Source of the DNA: Naegleria lovaniensis
Lineage: Eukaryota; Heterolobosea; Eutetramitea; Acrasida; Naegleriidae
NCBI RefSeq assembly: GCF_003324165.1
Contig: NW_025407892.1
Location: 1 to 62,571, forward strand
Length of the DNA: 62,571 nt
Direction of reading: 5' to 3'
A program made the position numbers and the translations under genes. This document shows positions 30,162 through 36,421 of this stretch, in pieces. The first letter of the stretch is position 1, and each line of letters begins with the position of its first letter. Below the pieces are notes generated by a model. It was given only the letters and a program-made list of their open reading frames with translations, ran no database searches and was not told where the DNA came from.

Positions 30162-31402
30162 TTACAGTGAAATGGAAAGACCTCTATCCTCAAAGAAGTC
30201 TAAAATTGAGGCGACACTGGTGCAATTACTAAACTCAATAATATCATTGGATAGAAATTGGTGATGCGAGTACAGCATAAACATTACGTGGTGGTGAAGC
30301 AACTGGAAAGGAATACCTCCGACTTGAATTGAAATTTGAAGGTATCGCTCAATGCATTCGAAAGGAACTTGGTTGAATCCAGCAAAAAGTGCAGGATTGC
30401 TTAACAGACCTCGTGCGCTCATGATTCCATCACAGCCAGTATATGAAGCTAAATCATTTGCGTCTTTCAATGAAAAAACGTCTCCATTATGCATGACAGG
30501 GATCTGTAGCGCTTGTTTCACAATTTTTGGACCATCTGGATTGACCTTTGTGTTTTTTGTTCGTTGTTTGTGAGTTCGACCGTGAACAGTGACCCAACTA
30601 GCACCAGCTTTTTCAATTTGTCTTGCTAAATCAATAGTTTTTCTAAACTCTAAGGAATCATCGTCTGGATGAATTCGAATTTTCACACCAATTGGTCGAA
30701 AAGTTCCAGATATAAACTTGTTGTTCGCTTCATGGACCATGTCAAAAATCTTTTGTGGTTGTGTCACTAAGGCTGCACCTAAATTTTCTTTCATGACATA
30801 GGGTTGAGGACAGCCACAGTTGATATCAATTCCATCACAAAAAGGTGCAATATATTGACAAGCCAAACTAAAATCTGTTGGATTATTGGCTGTAGTGGTG
30901 AAAGAGCGAGATATAATATTAAATGATGGTAATTTACACATTCAATAGTTAACAATAATTTGAAAATAATATTTCATCAATGTCAAATAAATTGATGAAA
31001 AAGTTTGTCAAATTTAAAACAACAACAAATCATACCTGCAAATTGTACCACGAGAGGTTTATCGTGAACGTGTGTTGCAAAATCTGAGTCTCTGGCCTTT
31101 TGTGATTTACTGAAACTATCGGCCATCATCATTGGTGTATACACGACGTCACAATTATACTCCAAACACAATAATCGAAACGCTAATTTTGAATAGCGAA
31201 CCATCGGAGCTTGTACTTTCAAATAAGTATTATTTTGTTTGGCATCTCGAAACATTTGCATAATATCTTGATGAGGTTTCATTTCATCTATCGGAATATA
31301 TTCATCTGAAGAGTGATTATTTGTGTTTAGAAGAGCATAATTCTCAGCCAAATTGAACCTCTTTTGTGGGGTTCTGGTGTGTTGTTCTGTGAGGGGAAGC
31401 AT
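30162..31402 (-). CDS. dus4: tRNA-dihydrouridine synthase 4 (Dus4/DUS4L type)
   Basis: Exons 31402-31036 and 30889-30162 flank a 146-bp intron (GCAG|GTATGA ... TACAG|CC, phase 1), giving 364 residues. The enzyme reduces uridine to dihydrouridine in the tRNA D-loop with FMN and NAD(P)H; eukaryotic Dus4 modifies U20a/b. Visible landmarks: VQAPMVRYSKLAFRLLC at the FMN barrel start; GIDINCGCPQPYVMKENLGA, with the catalytic-loop Cys; GVKIRIHPDDD; WVTVHGRTHKQR; PVMHNGDVFSLKDA; and GIMSARGLLSNPALFAGF. The order and spacing match Dus4 rather than Dus1-3. The splice restores VVQFAANNPTDF, the usual 'QFaanDp..f' phrase. It is divergent from the small gene at 31430 with only 27 bp between start codons, implying a shared promoter. 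Confidence 0.92.
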
Positions 31403-31912: not shown

Positions 31913-32020
31913 ATCTTTTCAATCTTCCAAATGACACTCTCAACTTTTGCACCTGTAAAACCTCTGAAGCTAGCTATCAAAGAATTGAAATCCGAACAAA
32001 AGCCTTTCTGGAGGCCCCTA

Positions 32021-32028
32021 GAGAATAT
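32021..32028. repeat. Target-site duplication, left (GAGAATAT)
   Basis: The eight bases GAGAATAT directly abut the left transposon tip and are repeated exactly at 35440-35447. Confidence 0.9.
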
Positions 32029-32191
32029 CAGGGAGGGTGAGCCAAAGCGTAGGCAACCAGCCTATACCCAACCATTCTTGGCGACGTTGACGAACTCAAG
32101 TGTCATCACGAAAATAAACATCTCCAACCAAAAAAAATGCCTACAGCAAACAAAACGTTCTGGCAGAAGCTGAGTGATCAACACAACCACA
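32029..32191. repeat. Left terminal inverted repeat
   Basis: It starts CAGGGAGGGTGAGCCAAAGC and is nearly identical to the reverse complement of 35266-35439. The main difference is an ~11-bp deletion just inside the tip (after GAGCCA). It contains the motif ACTCAAGTGTCA at 32094-32105. Confidence 0.92.
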
Positions 32192-32238
32192 TCAGCAAGT
32201 TTCTTCACTTCAACAAAACAACACGCAAACCAGAGTAG
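32137..32238 (+). CDS. 33-codon mini-ORF created by the left TIR
   Basis: Because the transposase start codon lies inside the right repeat, the left repeat carries a mirror copy of the first 18 codons (MPTANKTFWQKLSDQHNH). This frame runs inward, diverges after the repeat ends, and stops at TAG 32236-32238. It converges on the transposase gene. Expression is unproven; it is probably a by-product of the repeat. Confidence 0.35.
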   Translation: MPTANKTFWQKLSDQHNHISKFLHFNKTTRKPE

Positions 32239-32287
32239 GAAACAGAGAAAACAATTCATCGAACTGAACAAACCATCAGTGGAATTC

Positions 32288-35200
32288 CTAGTCGTCTATT
32301 GTTGTACATTCTGCTTTTCCGATGGCCTTCACAATTTCTTGATCGTTCCCAAACTTCGACAACAGCAAATCATACAACATAAGCACATCCACAACGGCAT
32401 TATGTGCTATTCCGGGAAGAGAGTCACATACTTTTTCTCTAAAGTGGTTTTCTAATCCCTTTTTTCCAAGCAAGTTTTTTTGCATAGTAGAACAATAGTA
32501 AATTGTTGATCGGAGTTTAAGTGGTGCAATTGCAGCACTAAAGAAAGCCTTGTCCAAACCAGTTGAATGAACCAACAACATCACATCAGCAGTGTCATTC
32601 CTAGTCAAATAATTACAAATTTTAGGAATCATGTTTTGCAATGTTTCACTTTCATCCAAAATCTGAAATTTAGTTTCGTGCATTTGTAATGCAATAGAAC
32701 TCCACACACCACTAGGGGATACAAATATGGAATGTAATTCATTACTAAATAATGATAACATTGCAAATTGAATTATGGAGTTGCATTTTGGAGAAAATCC
32801 TGTTGTTTCTAAATCTAGCACAAAGAAGTTCAATGGTCGTCTTGTCTCTTGATTGATACAGTGAGGCGTGGGAATTGATTTAAGAGGTGCAAAATTATAT
32901 TGAATAGTCAACCTGTTTTTGAATTTTGAAATCAGGTAAGGTGGTTTGTGTTGTACAATAATATTCTCATTGTTTTTGCAACTTTGTTTCCTAAAAGCAA
33001 CATCTTTTTCTAATTGAGCAGAAAATTGCAAACATTCTAATTGAGCAACTGTTGCTTCTGCTTCTTCGTCTGAAAATTGATGTTTAGCTTTCAAATGATT
33101 TGTAAAAGACCCTTTGATAATATATGGTTTTTGTTTTTTACATCCAGAAACAGGGCAGCATAAATATATACATTTAGGAGCACACACTTCAGCCCTCAAC
33201 GTAGTTTTTCTTGAGTAAGTGGCTACGTTTTGATTAATAATTTGTAATTCTTTGCAAGTTTTTTTCTTGACATTTCTATCAAGTACAATTCGACCAGGAA
33301 GAGTTGGTAAAATCTTGATAACCAATTTCATACCAAAATAATGATCAGTTAATGGAATATCTGGGAGTGAGAACCCACGAACATCGTCAGTGGAATGTAA
33401 TATTAAAAATATATAGAATGAAAATAGTGCGCTTTGGCAAAATTGTTTGGTTGTTGGCTTGGGAAACATTCCTCGAATTATTGAAAAGAGTAGCTCTTCA
33501 TAATTTGTTGTAATGCAACTGGGTTTGAAATTTGGAAACCGAGACGCTAATGCAAGAAATCCTTCAAGTGTGTGAACACATATTTTCTTCGTTTTTTTGG
33601 GATAATTGGGTAATTTTTCGAAAATTGTTTTGCTTTCACTCAAAATATCAATTATATCCGGACTGTTATCATTAATGCAGTCATAAATATCACGAATTAA
33701 TTCAAGGTAACCAGCAACACTATTTGCCTCTATAGTGCCAATTTTACGTAATTCTTGCAATACAGGTCGTTCTGTTAAATTTAGACATGATTTCAAATTC
33801 ATAATATCCGTAGGATCAACTTCTTCTCTGTCGAGTAATCGATACAATGTCCTATGTTGTATCATGTAATAAATTATGGTCTGCATTGAGATTTTCTCGT
33901 GCAATATTGTTCCATTAAATAATACATTTCGTTGATTTTTGAAATTGTGAACGTAATCATTGACGAAAATGAAGTCTTTGTGTTTTTTTCTAACAATTGT
34001 TTGCACAGCATGTGCATCAATTTCTGCATCAGAACATCCACACACAATTGTTACAGATTCTTGGAGCAACTCTTTGAAATAAAGTATTTTGCTAGTGACA
34101 AATTCAAGTACGTCTGTTTCAGAACTAACTCCAAACCAACCCAGCGGTAAATGCCATGAATTATCGATGGCATTAATAGAAAATAAAATCATTTGGTCTA
34201 TTAGATGTTTAACACCAAATTGTTTCACGTCTTCAACAGTGTAACAATATTTTTCACTTCCAACAATTTGATCTCCCAAAACATCAAAATGTTTAAACAC
34301 TTTCATTCCATCAAACGAGATACATGTATCTTTACAAGAGTCAGGCAGTAACATGTTCTTTAGGGTAAGTGTGATGTCGGGAATCATACCATAACAACCA
34401 GCAGGTGTCCATTGTTTAACAGTATTCCAACTTGGTATAATTAGATTATATTTTAAATGATTAAAATTATTCCGTTCAATATTTTGATTGCGCTCTCCTC
34501 CCATTCTGATGAAAAATTGTTTTCCACAATAATATTTCATCACAACCCAATATCTTCTTTCAACCTCTGAATATTTGTGATGAAATGGATTCTTTGCATA
34601 ATTTTGCAACTGATTGAATATAAAGGATCCAAAAAATGTCTCTAAGAATGGAGTAAAGCTTGACCTTGGAACCTTCAAAGCTTGTGTATCACGGTGTTCA
34701 TTGTTCGTAATTTGTTTGTTGTTGTATTGTGTCGACAATGCTTCATTGTATGAAGTTTGAGCTTTTCTAAACACTGTTAAAAGTTTGTGTTCATCTTGGC
34801 TGACTGGTATAAATGGCACAAGTTTACACAATAACTCATACATCAATAATGGAAATGATATTAATTGCTTGGGTTGTGGTAAAATTCCTTTCAATAGCAT
34901 TTCAAATATATCATGCCTATTTTCCATGATTGAAACTAGGTGTTTTTCCAATTCACTACATTGACGACACTGATTTTGAAAAATACTACAATATTTTGAA
35001 CAACATGCTGATTCTAAGGTGAGTTCGTCTCGAATAACGCCAATTATGTCATAATCGCAATTATAAATTTGTTTTCCTGTTAATAATTTAGAATAATTGT
35101 TCCGATTTATACCTCTGCAAACGTATTTCAGTTCGGAATAGCACTCTTCATAACTAACATTAGTAGCTGGTGTAATATTTTCAACCATGAACGGTTGATC

Positions 35201-35320
35201 TTCAAAATAAACTCTTTTCTTTACTGACGGCATTATTGAAGCAGTTGAACGAATATCGGGAGCATTGTGGTTGTGTTGATCACTCAGCTTCTGCCAGAAC
35301 GTTTTGTTTGCTGTAGGCAT
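32288..35320 (-). CDS. P-element-like transposase fused to a DEDDh exonuclease
   Basis: 1010 residues from ATG 35320, which lies inside the right TIR. Order: a Cys-rich patch (~100-118, CCSKYC and CRQC); then an RNase H-like transposase core. The core has CISFDGMKVFKHF with IVGSE (~330-350), resembling the 'iSfDEM.i' first catalytic Asp block of P/THAP9 transposases, and VNDYVHNFKNQRNVLF (~450-466), resembling 'DppHliKniRN'. A C2H2-type finger CPVSGC...FTNHLKAKH (~720-746) follows. A C-terminal DnaQ-like 3'-5' exonuclease (~830-990) has all motifs: ExoI VLDLETTG, ExoII STGLDKAFF, ExoIII AHNAVVD (H-x4-D). All four acidic residues plus the His are present, so nuclease activity is plausible. The transposase call is by pattern; the exonuclease call is firm. 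I know of no standard P-type element with this fusion. Confidence 0.8.
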   Translation of the reverse strand: MPTANKTFWQKLSDQHNHNAPDIRSTASIMPSVKKRVYFEDQPFMVENITPATNVSYEECYSELKYVCRGINRNNYSKLLTGKQIYNCDYDIIGVIRDELTLESACCSKYCSIFQNQCRQCSELEKHLVSIMENRHDIFEMLLKGILPQPKQLISFPLLMYELLCKLVPFIPVSQDEHKLLTVFRKAQTSYNEALSTQYNNKQITNNEHRDTQALKVPRSSFTPFLETFFGSFIFNQLQNYAKNPFHHKYSEVERRYWVVMKYYCGKQFFIRMGGERNQNIERNNFNHLKYNLIIPSWNTVKQWTPAGCYGMIPDITLTLKNMLLPDSCKDTCISFDGMKVFKHFDVLGDQIVGSEKYCYTVEDVKQFGVKHLIDQMILFSINAIDNSWHLPLGWFGVSSETDVLEFVTSKILYFKELLQESVTIVCGCSDAEIDAHAVQTIVRKKHKDFIFVNDYVHNFKNQRNVLFNGTILHEKISMQTIIYYMIQHRTLYRLLDREEVDPTDIMNLKSCLNLTERPVLQELRKIGTIEANSVAGYLELIRDIYDCINDNSPDIIDILSESKTIFEKLPNYPKKTKKICVHTLEGFLALASRFPNFKPSCITTNYEELLFSIIRGMFPKPTTKQFCQSALFSFYIFLILHSTDDVRGFSLPDIPLTDHYFGMKLVIKILPTLPGRIVLDRNVKKKTCKELQIINQNVATYSRKTTLRAEVCAPKCIYLCCPVSGCKKQKPYIIKGSFTNHLKAKHQFSDEEAEATVAQLECLQFSAQLEKDVAFRKQSCKNNENIIVQHKPPYLISKFKNRLTIQYNFAPLKSIPTPHCINQETRRPLNFFVLDLETTGFSPKCNSIIQFAMLSLFSNELHSIFVSPSGVWSSIALQMHETKFQILDESETLQNMIPKICNYLTRNDTADVMLLVHSTGLDKAFFSAAIAPLKLRSTIYYCSTMQKNLLGKKGLENHFREKVCDSLPGIAHNAVVDVLMLYDLLLSKFGNDQEIVKAIGKAECTTIDD

Positions 35321-35439
35321 TTTTTTTGGTTGGAGATGTTTATTTTCGTGATGACACTTGAGTTCGTCAACGTCGCCAAGAATGGTTGGGTATAGGCTGG
35401 TTGCCTACGAAGCTTTTTCTATCTGGCTCACCCTCCCTG
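35266..35439. repeat. Right terminal inverted repeat
   Basis: Reverse complement of the left repeat, with 11 extra bases near the tip (GATAGAAAAAGCTTC where the left has AAGC). It contains the transposase ATG (35320-35318) and the inverted motif TGACACTTGAGT at 35352-35363. Confidence 0.92.
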
Positions 35440-35447
35440 GAGAATAT
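35440..35447. repeat. Target-site duplication, right (GAGAATAT)
   Basis: Exact copy of 32021-32028. Removing the element and one copy gives a continuous AT-rich upstream region for the next gene. Confidence 0.9.
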
Positions 35448-35494
35448 GAGACTTGCAAGAACACGCACGATCCATAGAGAACCATCAAATAAAA

Positions 35495-36421
35495 ATGGCC
35501 CAAACATCAAAGTGTCTTTTTGTGTTTCTGGAAGGAGTGCTGATGAATAATCATAATTCATCGTCTTCAGAAAGTTTCTTGCTGGAACAATCCAAACATG
35601 AGGAAATGGATCGTATTTGTAGATTGGGTGGCACAACACTCATTCATACTCGGAAATTAACCCATTCCGATTTCAACAATAGTTTGATGAATACAGACAC
35701 AGCTTACATGATGCAATTGTTTGATTATTATGATCCTATACAGCCCGAAGATGATGAGGAAGAGGAGTCTTGGAAAAAACACAACGAACTCCGATTAGAA
35801 AAACAAAGTTTATTTTGTAAATACAAGAAATTGAAAGTTCAAACATGGACCACCAACGCAAGTGTTTTACAAATTTTTTGTAACAGAAAGGACAAGGTGA
35901 AATTAGTTAGCGATCTATTCAGCAGCGATCAAGAGGACGCATTAGTGGAGAATGCTGCTTCAGCCATGTTAGAAAATGACATTTTGTTATTGCATGATAA
36001 TGTATCGAAATTGGAAACATCTCAAAAAGTGCTAAGAATCGAACATGCGGATCAATTGATCAAGAAAATTACAGAAAAATTTTCACAGATGCAACAAACA
36101 ACACCTGCCTTGAAGGTCTATCATGTGCTACTTTTTAGCTGCCCATTTAATGAGACCATGACCTCGCAGCATACAAAATCTCTTTTCAAACCATTACAAA
36201 GTTATCAACAAAAGAATGGACAAAATATTTCACACCTCGTTTTTGATGAGCCATCGATGATTTGCGTCCAATATTGTGAAGAAGAAACCAGAAGAGACAA
36301 CAATGAACATCTCACAGAAAAATCATGCTTGGAAAATGCTGGAAATTCATCCATACTTGTTGATTTTATACTAGCTGAAGTAGCTTATAAGTTACGAAAG
36401 AGTCCAAAATATGGAGCATAA
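35495..36421 (+). CDS. Hypothetical protein, 308 aa, just downstream of the transposon
   Basis: Single-exon ORF from ATG 35495. It starts MAQTSKCLFVFLEGVL, has an acidic stretch QPEDDEEEESWKK (~85-97) and a helical middle (VLRIEHADQLIKKITEKF), and ends KLRKSPKYGA. A TGA lies just upstream in frame, so the start is well bounded. There is no membrane segment and I do not recognise a family. The transposon sits 55 bp before the start codon and must occupy or replace the gene's promoter or leader. Expression may therefore now depend on the element's terminal repeat. Confidence 0.65.
   Translation: MAQTSKCLFVFLEGVLMNNHNSSSSESFLLEQSKHEEMDRICRLGGTTLIHTRKLTHSDFNNSLMNTDTAYMMQLFDYYDPIQPEDDEEEESWKKHNELRLEKQSLFCKYKKLKVQTWTTNASVLQIFCNRKDKVKLVSDLFSSDQEDALVENAASAMLENDILLLHDNVSKLETSQKVLRIEHADQLIKKITEKFSQMQQTTPALKVYHVLLFSCPFNETMTSQHTKSLFKPLQSYQQKNGQNISHLVFDEPSMICVQYCEEETRRDNNEHLTEKSCLENAGNSSILVDFILAEVAYKLRKSPKYGA

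Follow-up and report, generated by a model that had tools for sequence, protein, structure and literature searches.

A stretch of 62,571 nucleotides from Naegleria lovaniensis (contig NW_025407892.1, here called the window; 37.2% GC) carries a DNA transposon in which a transposase core, a C2H2 zinc finger and a complete TREX/DnaQ-type DEDDh exonuclease are encoded together as one protein of 1010 amino acids. The open reading frame (ORF) lies on the minus strand, running from 35320 to 32288, and the plus strand of the same interval is interrupted by 66 stops. A sequence-only reading of the window had placed one intact ORF at this position and interpreted it as a transposase fused to a complete exonuclease, and both statements are borne out: the fusion is present in the coding sequence of all 13 full-length copies found in the genome (family A) and in a second, divergent family (family B). 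The core and the exonuclease are each homologous between the two families, so the pairing is present in both of them and is not a one-off chimera, which is the decisive result of this analysis. The exonuclease probably has a function in the machinery of transposition. The superfamily label used for the element, “P-like” rather than P element, is tentative, since the THAP domain was not found.

Architecture of the fusion protein

The protein and its three recognizable parts are placed in the window as follows.

32288–35320, minus strand: transposase-exonuclease fusion ORF, 1010 residues, from the reading-frame translation
33371–34330, minus strand: candidate P-like RNase H type core, residues ~331–650; PF21787 at E=0.0033, residues invariant with respect to family B, fold unconfirmed
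33080–33157, minus strand: C2H2-type zinc finger, residues 722–747; sequence motif, same position in family B, no Pfam match
32312–32836, minus strand: TREX/DnaQ-type DEDDh exonuclease, residues ~829–1003; PF00929 at E=0.004, PolC and TREX1 matched by the two-family profile

All motifs named in the sequence-only reading are found in the frame: ISFDGM at residue 334, VNDYVH at 453, the finger (C722, C727, H742 and H747), DLETTG at 836, GLDKAFF at 921 and HNAVVD at 973. The catalytic set of the exonuclease is complete, with D836, E838, D923, H973 and D978 arranged as D-x-E, D and H-x4-D.

The signature of P transposases is a DDE triad with a [C/D](2)H motif after the second D, as given in excerpts on the P superfamily (PMC8230255) and on Galileo (PMC4168063). 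By this signature the family A core has, at the level of motifs, the triad D337, D431 and E609, together with D455-x2-H458. VNDYVH is thus identified as the D(2)H motif, and the second catalytic aspartate is more likely D431, which sits in GCSD and is invariant between families A and B.

Searches with profile hidden Markov models, which had been proposed along with the sequence-only reading, returned two Pfam domains, TNP-like_RNaseH_N (PF21787, residues 325–403, E=0.0033) and RNase_T (PF00929, E=0.004), both below their curated cut-offs. The match of residues 453–533 to PTHB1_hp (E=0.082) was taken as chance. In the PDB, phmmer with the window protein gave a single match, the PolC exonuclease (E=0.015), and a profile of the whole protein gave exonucleases and weak unrelated chains, the core being without a match. 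No THAP domain was detected by Pfam at E≤1 in the proteins of either family; the THAP search of the genome was silent everywhere, control sequences included, and therefore carries no information. The hAT transposases have C(2)H and a hAT C-terminal dimerisation domain; families A and B both carry D(2)H and gave no hAT Pfam match at E≤1.

The same pairing in a second family

The genome, 30.69 Mb in 97 contigs, was searched with PF00929, which led to two further long frames, L050 on contig C24 and L051 on contig C5 (686715–690614), which constitute family B. An alignment of the C5 protein with that of the window spans 885 columns, with 20% identity and E=8e-17, and the two families are 20–25% identical overall. 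The order of domains is common to both: core, C2H2 finger, TREX-like exonuclease. Between the families, the core alone scores 67.4 bits (E=1.6e-16), where the highest of 100 shuffles is 22.7; the exonuclease alone scores 30.4 bits (E=7.7e-6), with 21.6 as the highest of 100 shuffles; and the middle stretch between them, which includes the finger, scores 16.2 bits, where shuffles reach 21.6.

The core residues of family B are D380, D485, E675 and D507-x2-H510, so that the DDE triad and the D(2)H motif are invariant between the families. The DEDDh set is also present, its third aspartate being assigned by motif as D1028 in AHNGDRLDF; MAFFT aligns D923 of family A (in GLDKAFF) with a different aspartate of family B, residue 1046. 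Pfam gives TNP-like_RNaseH_N at E=0.0086 and 0.0061 for family B, and RNase_T as well, all under cut-off. The ends of its elements are 16 bp long and start with CACGGGTGG; each of the four copies read at both ends, a set without L054 and L055, is flanked by an 8-bp duplication. Family B is without an inner repeat, and no unequal end spacers were found in it. The C5 and C24 copies differ by 3 synonymous and 2 nonsynonymous changes in the core and by 1 and 2, respectively, in each of the middle stretch and the exonuclease, which is too few for a ratio of nonsynonymous to synonymous rates (dN/dS).

Copies lacking the exonuclease, which the sequence-only reading had named as the mark of a chimera, do occur, and they are limited to one derivative of family B on contig C19 and to other deletion or truncated copies. 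The C-terminus of family B contains a Cys-rich stretch that by eye resembles a CXC (tesmin) domain, followed by further Cys pairs; it is unreported by Pfam.

Anatomy and copies of family A

The complete transposon of the window consists of the following parts.

32029–35439, minus strand: complete family A transposon, 3411 bp; one and the same outer 15-mer borders both sides of the 13 full-length copies found, 8-bp duplications in 9 of the 13
32021–32028: left 8-bp target-site duplication GAGAATAT, identical to 35440–35447; one copy at the empty C12 site
35440–35447: right 8-bp target-site duplication GAGAATAT, matching the left one
32029–32043: outer 15-bp terminal inverted repeat CAGGGAGGGTGAGCC, 3′ side of the ORF
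32044–32047: short spacer of 4 bp (AAAG) from outer to inner repeat
32048–32191: inner inverted repeat, 144 bp, perfect
35266–35409: inner inverted repeat, 144 bp, holding the start of the ORF
35410–35424: long spacer, 15 bp, 5′ side of the ORF
35425–35439: outer 15-bp terminal inverted repeat CAGGGAGGGTGAGCC, 5′ side of the ORF

The spacers of the two ends thus differ by 11 bp (4 against 15). Contig C12 contains a stretch 98–99% identical to the surroundings of the element, in which the element is absent and GAGAATAT occurs once. This stretch could represent the second allele or a duplicate; either way, it shows the site in its empty state.

At least 13 full-length copies, the window copy included, lie on 13 contigs. 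The ORF is uninterrupted in all but one of them, L012, where a stop at residue 785 falls upstream of the exonuclease, and the 12 other full-length ORFs differ from that of the window by 1 to 3 bases, too few for dN/dS to be informative. The near-identical copies and the empty site suggest that family A has moved recently. Exact 8-bp duplications flank nine of the full-length copies and also a 998-bp deletion copy (L018), which has a duplication of its own. The other four (L007, L009, L010 and L013) are not flanked by a matching pair, and the ends compared included no flank resembling theirs that could be the partner; recombination between copies or assembly joins are possible causes. Partial copies include three at contig ends, one truncated on C56 and a short piece on C5. 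The pieces on C33 and C5 were considered as old relatives (80% and 83% identical at the protein level) and rejected, for their DNA is 99.6% identical over 976 bp and 99.4% identical over 158 bp, respectively.

One short-spacer and one long-spacer end are combined in 12 of the 13 full-length copies, the exception being L010, with the long kind at both ends; the two kinds also occur together in all ten copies that bear a duplication (L018 and nine full-length ones). In L009, L011 and L013 the interior is reversed relative to the outer ends, and L011 retains its duplication. These three and L010 share the substitution D966G, and this subfamily probably arose by recombination between the 144-bp repeats.

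The outer 15-mer, with at most one mismatch, has 32 matches in the genome, which make up 14 pairs and four single sites (on C27, C33, C48 and C56). Among them no two opposite ends lie closer together than in the 998-bp copy, so that no double-tail scar of the P type was found in a search that is blind to scars shorter than 15 nt per side. At C48:233561 (L031) there is a lone element end of 48 nt preceded by the octamer GTAATGTT; at C33:974 (L032) the same octamer follows the element end, and the further flank matches that of C27. L031 and L032 are perhaps parts of broken or mis-assembled insertions.

The inner repeat opposite the ORF start mirrors it at 32137–32199, where 21 codons are matched, and both ends of the element may therefore carry an inward promoter and a start. 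At the empty site on C12 an unbroken open frame passes through the insertion point into the frame that corresponds to a 308-aa ORF at 35495 of the window, and places 48 residues before it (window 31931–36421 compared with L059). This 308-aa ORF has no Pfam match at E≤0.01. On the other side of the element, at 30162–31402, two ORFs cover a host dihydrouridine synthase gene that is probably split by an intron.

Relationships of the exonuclease

A profile built from the exonucleases of both families finds the PolC exonuclease (E=1.8e-9) and TREX1 (from E=4.1e-8) as its best matches in the PDB, neither of which is a transposase domain; TREX1 is a 3′ exonuclease of DNA. One TREX1 chain reads AHNGDRYDF where family B has AHNGDRLDF. 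In a tree of the exonucleases, which comprised families A and B and eight of the ten host RNase_T rows over cut-off (L045 as one exon, two rows at C5:567 kb omitted), A and B were not grouped with support (50/40). By BLAST the best match of the family A exonuclease is that of family B, and the best match of the latter is the host locus L040 (36.2 against 30.4 bits). The shared order of domains suggests a single capture of the exonuclease for both families, which is unproven.

The RNase_T loci L048 and L049 were set aside, as by eye they resemble host genes of the PAN2-like and REXO-like kinds and have no transposase core. A further locus, L052 on C43, has a weak exonuclease match (E=0.209). 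No relative was confirmed in the viral contigs and the bacterial and archaeal genomes scanned.

A third, tentatively P-like family

The genome was also searched with PF21789, and of the six weak rows obtained the three best (E=0.18) belong to copies of a further repeated element. This third family (L060, L061 and L062) has 38-bp ends GAGGGCCCTTTC, 8-bp duplications in two of its three copies and weak TNP-like matches in two of its four frames (E from 0.03 to 0.07). BLAST of the third family against families A and B gave nothing beyond chance, and its kinship to them is tentatively kept as a lead only. Another weak PF21789 match (C5:624708–624773, E=0.89) lies within an open frame of 1811 residues.

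Proposed mechanism and alternatives

The explanation put forward here, as the leading candidate and still a tentative one, is that of a P-like transposon whose fused exonuclease trims the 3′ tails of staggered excision, chiefly at the donor site. A single protein would bind the element ends, and its DDE core, presumably of the RNase H type, would cut and join DNA to produce the 8-bp target duplications. A staggered cut of the P type would leave 3′ single-stranded tails, which by this geometry would consist of element sequence at the donor site; if the cut is P-like, the tail would correspond approximately to the 15-bp outer repeat. A TREX-like enzyme, predicted to act as a 3′–5′ DNA exonuclease and tethered through the linker that bears the C2H2 finger, would be well placed to remove the donor tails, which would allow clean repair and leave a stub that is not re-cut or re-joined. 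The 3′-OH ends of the element itself would stay protected within the synaptic complex. The absence of closely paired outer repeats agrees with such trimming and does not prove it. The proposal of the sequence-only reading, that the exonuclease could trim ends in the manner of the DnaQ-like nucleases that work with Cas1-Cas2, is in this respect reasonable.

Several observations weigh against this explanation. The RNase_T match of the window protein (residues 834–985, E=0.004) is under the curated cut-off, and the AlphaFold2 predicted local distance difference test (pLDDT) score is 33.3 for the whole protein and 36.7 for the core with family B as partner, values too low to yield a usable fold. 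The core profile matched no transposase in the PDB, giving three unrelated weak matches (best E=1.1), and family A alone was recovered when the genome was searched with PF21787. The family B derivative on C19 (L056) has a frame of 777 residues that keeps the core and has lost the finger and the exonuclease, and it carries an 8-bp duplication, gained before or after that deletion. In the third family, a C-terminal frame of 352 residues, extending from just before the E-helix motif to near the element end, contains no recognizable exonuclease, with the proviso that all three copies are internally deleted and may all be missing the same stretch. The C19 derivative and the third family indicate that the exonuclease is not required for every such element. 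Long scars would equally be lacking if excision were rare or breaks were repaired from a template, and the activity of the exonuclease as well as its substrate are inferred.

A different role at the ends would be maturation, where the element is cut at or outside its 3′ ends and the exonuclease trims the transferred strand before integration. A natural Cas1-Cas2/DEDDh fusion trims and integrates in this manner (excerpt of PMC10284694), and the same exact ends are found in 13 full-length copies of family A; however, in the case of the P transposase the cut already falls at the element's 3′ end (excerpt of PMC7776569) and there is no sign otherwise here, which makes maturation unlikely. We consider it rather less likely still that the exonuclease works outside the transposition reaction, by degrading surplus or off-pathway DNA of the transposon or host nucleic acids that set off silencing or the sensing of DNA. 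TREX enzymes degrade intermediates of L1 retrotransposition and the authors of KolobokD propose that its nuclease breaks down DNA intermediates, starting at the 3′ end (both in excerpts of PMC9587614), but tethering to a transposase would favour action at the element ends. Loss of catalysis, the fold being kept for DNA binding or protein contact, would account for the weak single-sequence Pfam score and for the longest end branch of the exonuclease tree; it is improbable in view of the five catalytic residues found in both families (the third Asp by motif) at 20–25% identity.

The assignment of the element must be weighed in the same way. The sequence-only reading had called the core P-element-like, and in favour of this are the 8-bp duplications, the DDE triad with D(2)H, the weak Pfam matches and the asymmetry of the end spacers; what did not follow is a THAP domain or a transposase match in the PDB. 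Membership in Kolobok (KolobokD-like) or in another superfamily with C/DxxH is suggested by the fact that KolobokD is the sole lineage of DNA transposons with a TREX-like DEDDh exonuclease found in the literature searched (excerpt of PMC9587614). It is nevertheless improbable, as the duplications are of 8 bp and not TTAA, and inspection by eye shows no CCHC finger following the first D and no C/H finger in the stretch from D(2)H to E. A chance chimera or an assembly error is refuted by 13 full-length copies on 13 contigs and by a divergent family with the same order of domains.

Comparison with known systems

The likeness of families A and B to the P element and THAP9 consists of the 8-bp duplications, the DDE triad followed by D(2)H and the weak match to the TNP-like RNase H domain of Pfam. 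Unlike these transposases, they have a C2H2 finger and a TREX-like exonuclease added, and no THAP domain was found. The second D and E are separated by 178 residues in family A and 190 in family B, as opposed to 228 in P and 239 in THAP9, and the second D and D(2)H by 24 and 22, as opposed to 36 in P (excerpt of PMC8230255). The P transposase makes one cut at the element's 3′ end and one on the opposite strand 17 bp further in, which yields 17-nt 3′ extensions, and 9 and 21 bp lie between terminal repeat and binding site at the two P ends, which the authors liken to 12/23 signal sequences (excerpt of PMC7776569). Family A likewise has unequal spacers, 4 and 15 bp where P has 9 and 21, and the pair recalls the 12/23 arrangement of RAG, while its ends (CAGGGAGGGTGAGCC) differ from those of the P element.

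Galileo, of the P superfamily, resembles family A in its long inverted repeats, its structural variation and its ectopic recombination between copies. It differs in having mostly 7-bp duplications and a THAP domain, and no exonuclease is mentioned in the excerpt of its description (PMC4168063).

The sequence-only reading knew of no P-type element with this architecture, and none with an exonuclease was found among the top matches of the open-licence literature searched. A TREX-like nuclease in a DNA transposon is not wholly new, however, but Kolobok is another superfamily: KolobokD transposons, as described by Kojima and Bao, encode a DEDDh exonuclease that resembles exuperantia, TREX and ERI1 (excerpt of PMC9587614). 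Their duplications are TTAA, their first D is followed by a CCHC finger and they come from molluscs, arthropods and cnidarians (same excerpt), whereas the duplications of families A and B are 8 bp long and of varied sequence, and no such Cys/His set was seen by eye between D337 and D431 of family A.

The integrase fold of Cas1-Cas2 is unrelated to the type of core in family A. The Cas1-Cas2/DEDDh trimmer-integrase serves CRISPR adaptation in prokaryotes, and it is like the element described here in that a DNA-joining enzyme and a DnaQ-like exonuclease are naturally fused (excerpt of PMC10284694). It is conceivable, if doubtful, that the P-like transposases of this lineage of protists represent a class of “trimmer-transposase”, in which one polypeptide would cut with long 3′ tails, remove them and, in family A, pair unlike ends by the 11-bp difference of their spacers, a eukaryotic counterpart of Cas1-Cas2/DEDDh that is independent of KolobokD. 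With an element that possibly supplies a DNA 3′ exonuclease of its own, a single enzyme is enough to test what becomes of the 3′ tails. If the assignment is correct, the TREX-like partner in KolobokD and in a P-like element, and the DnaQ-like partner of Cas1-Cas2, would point to repeated recruitment of DEDDh exonucleases by DNA-joining enzymes.

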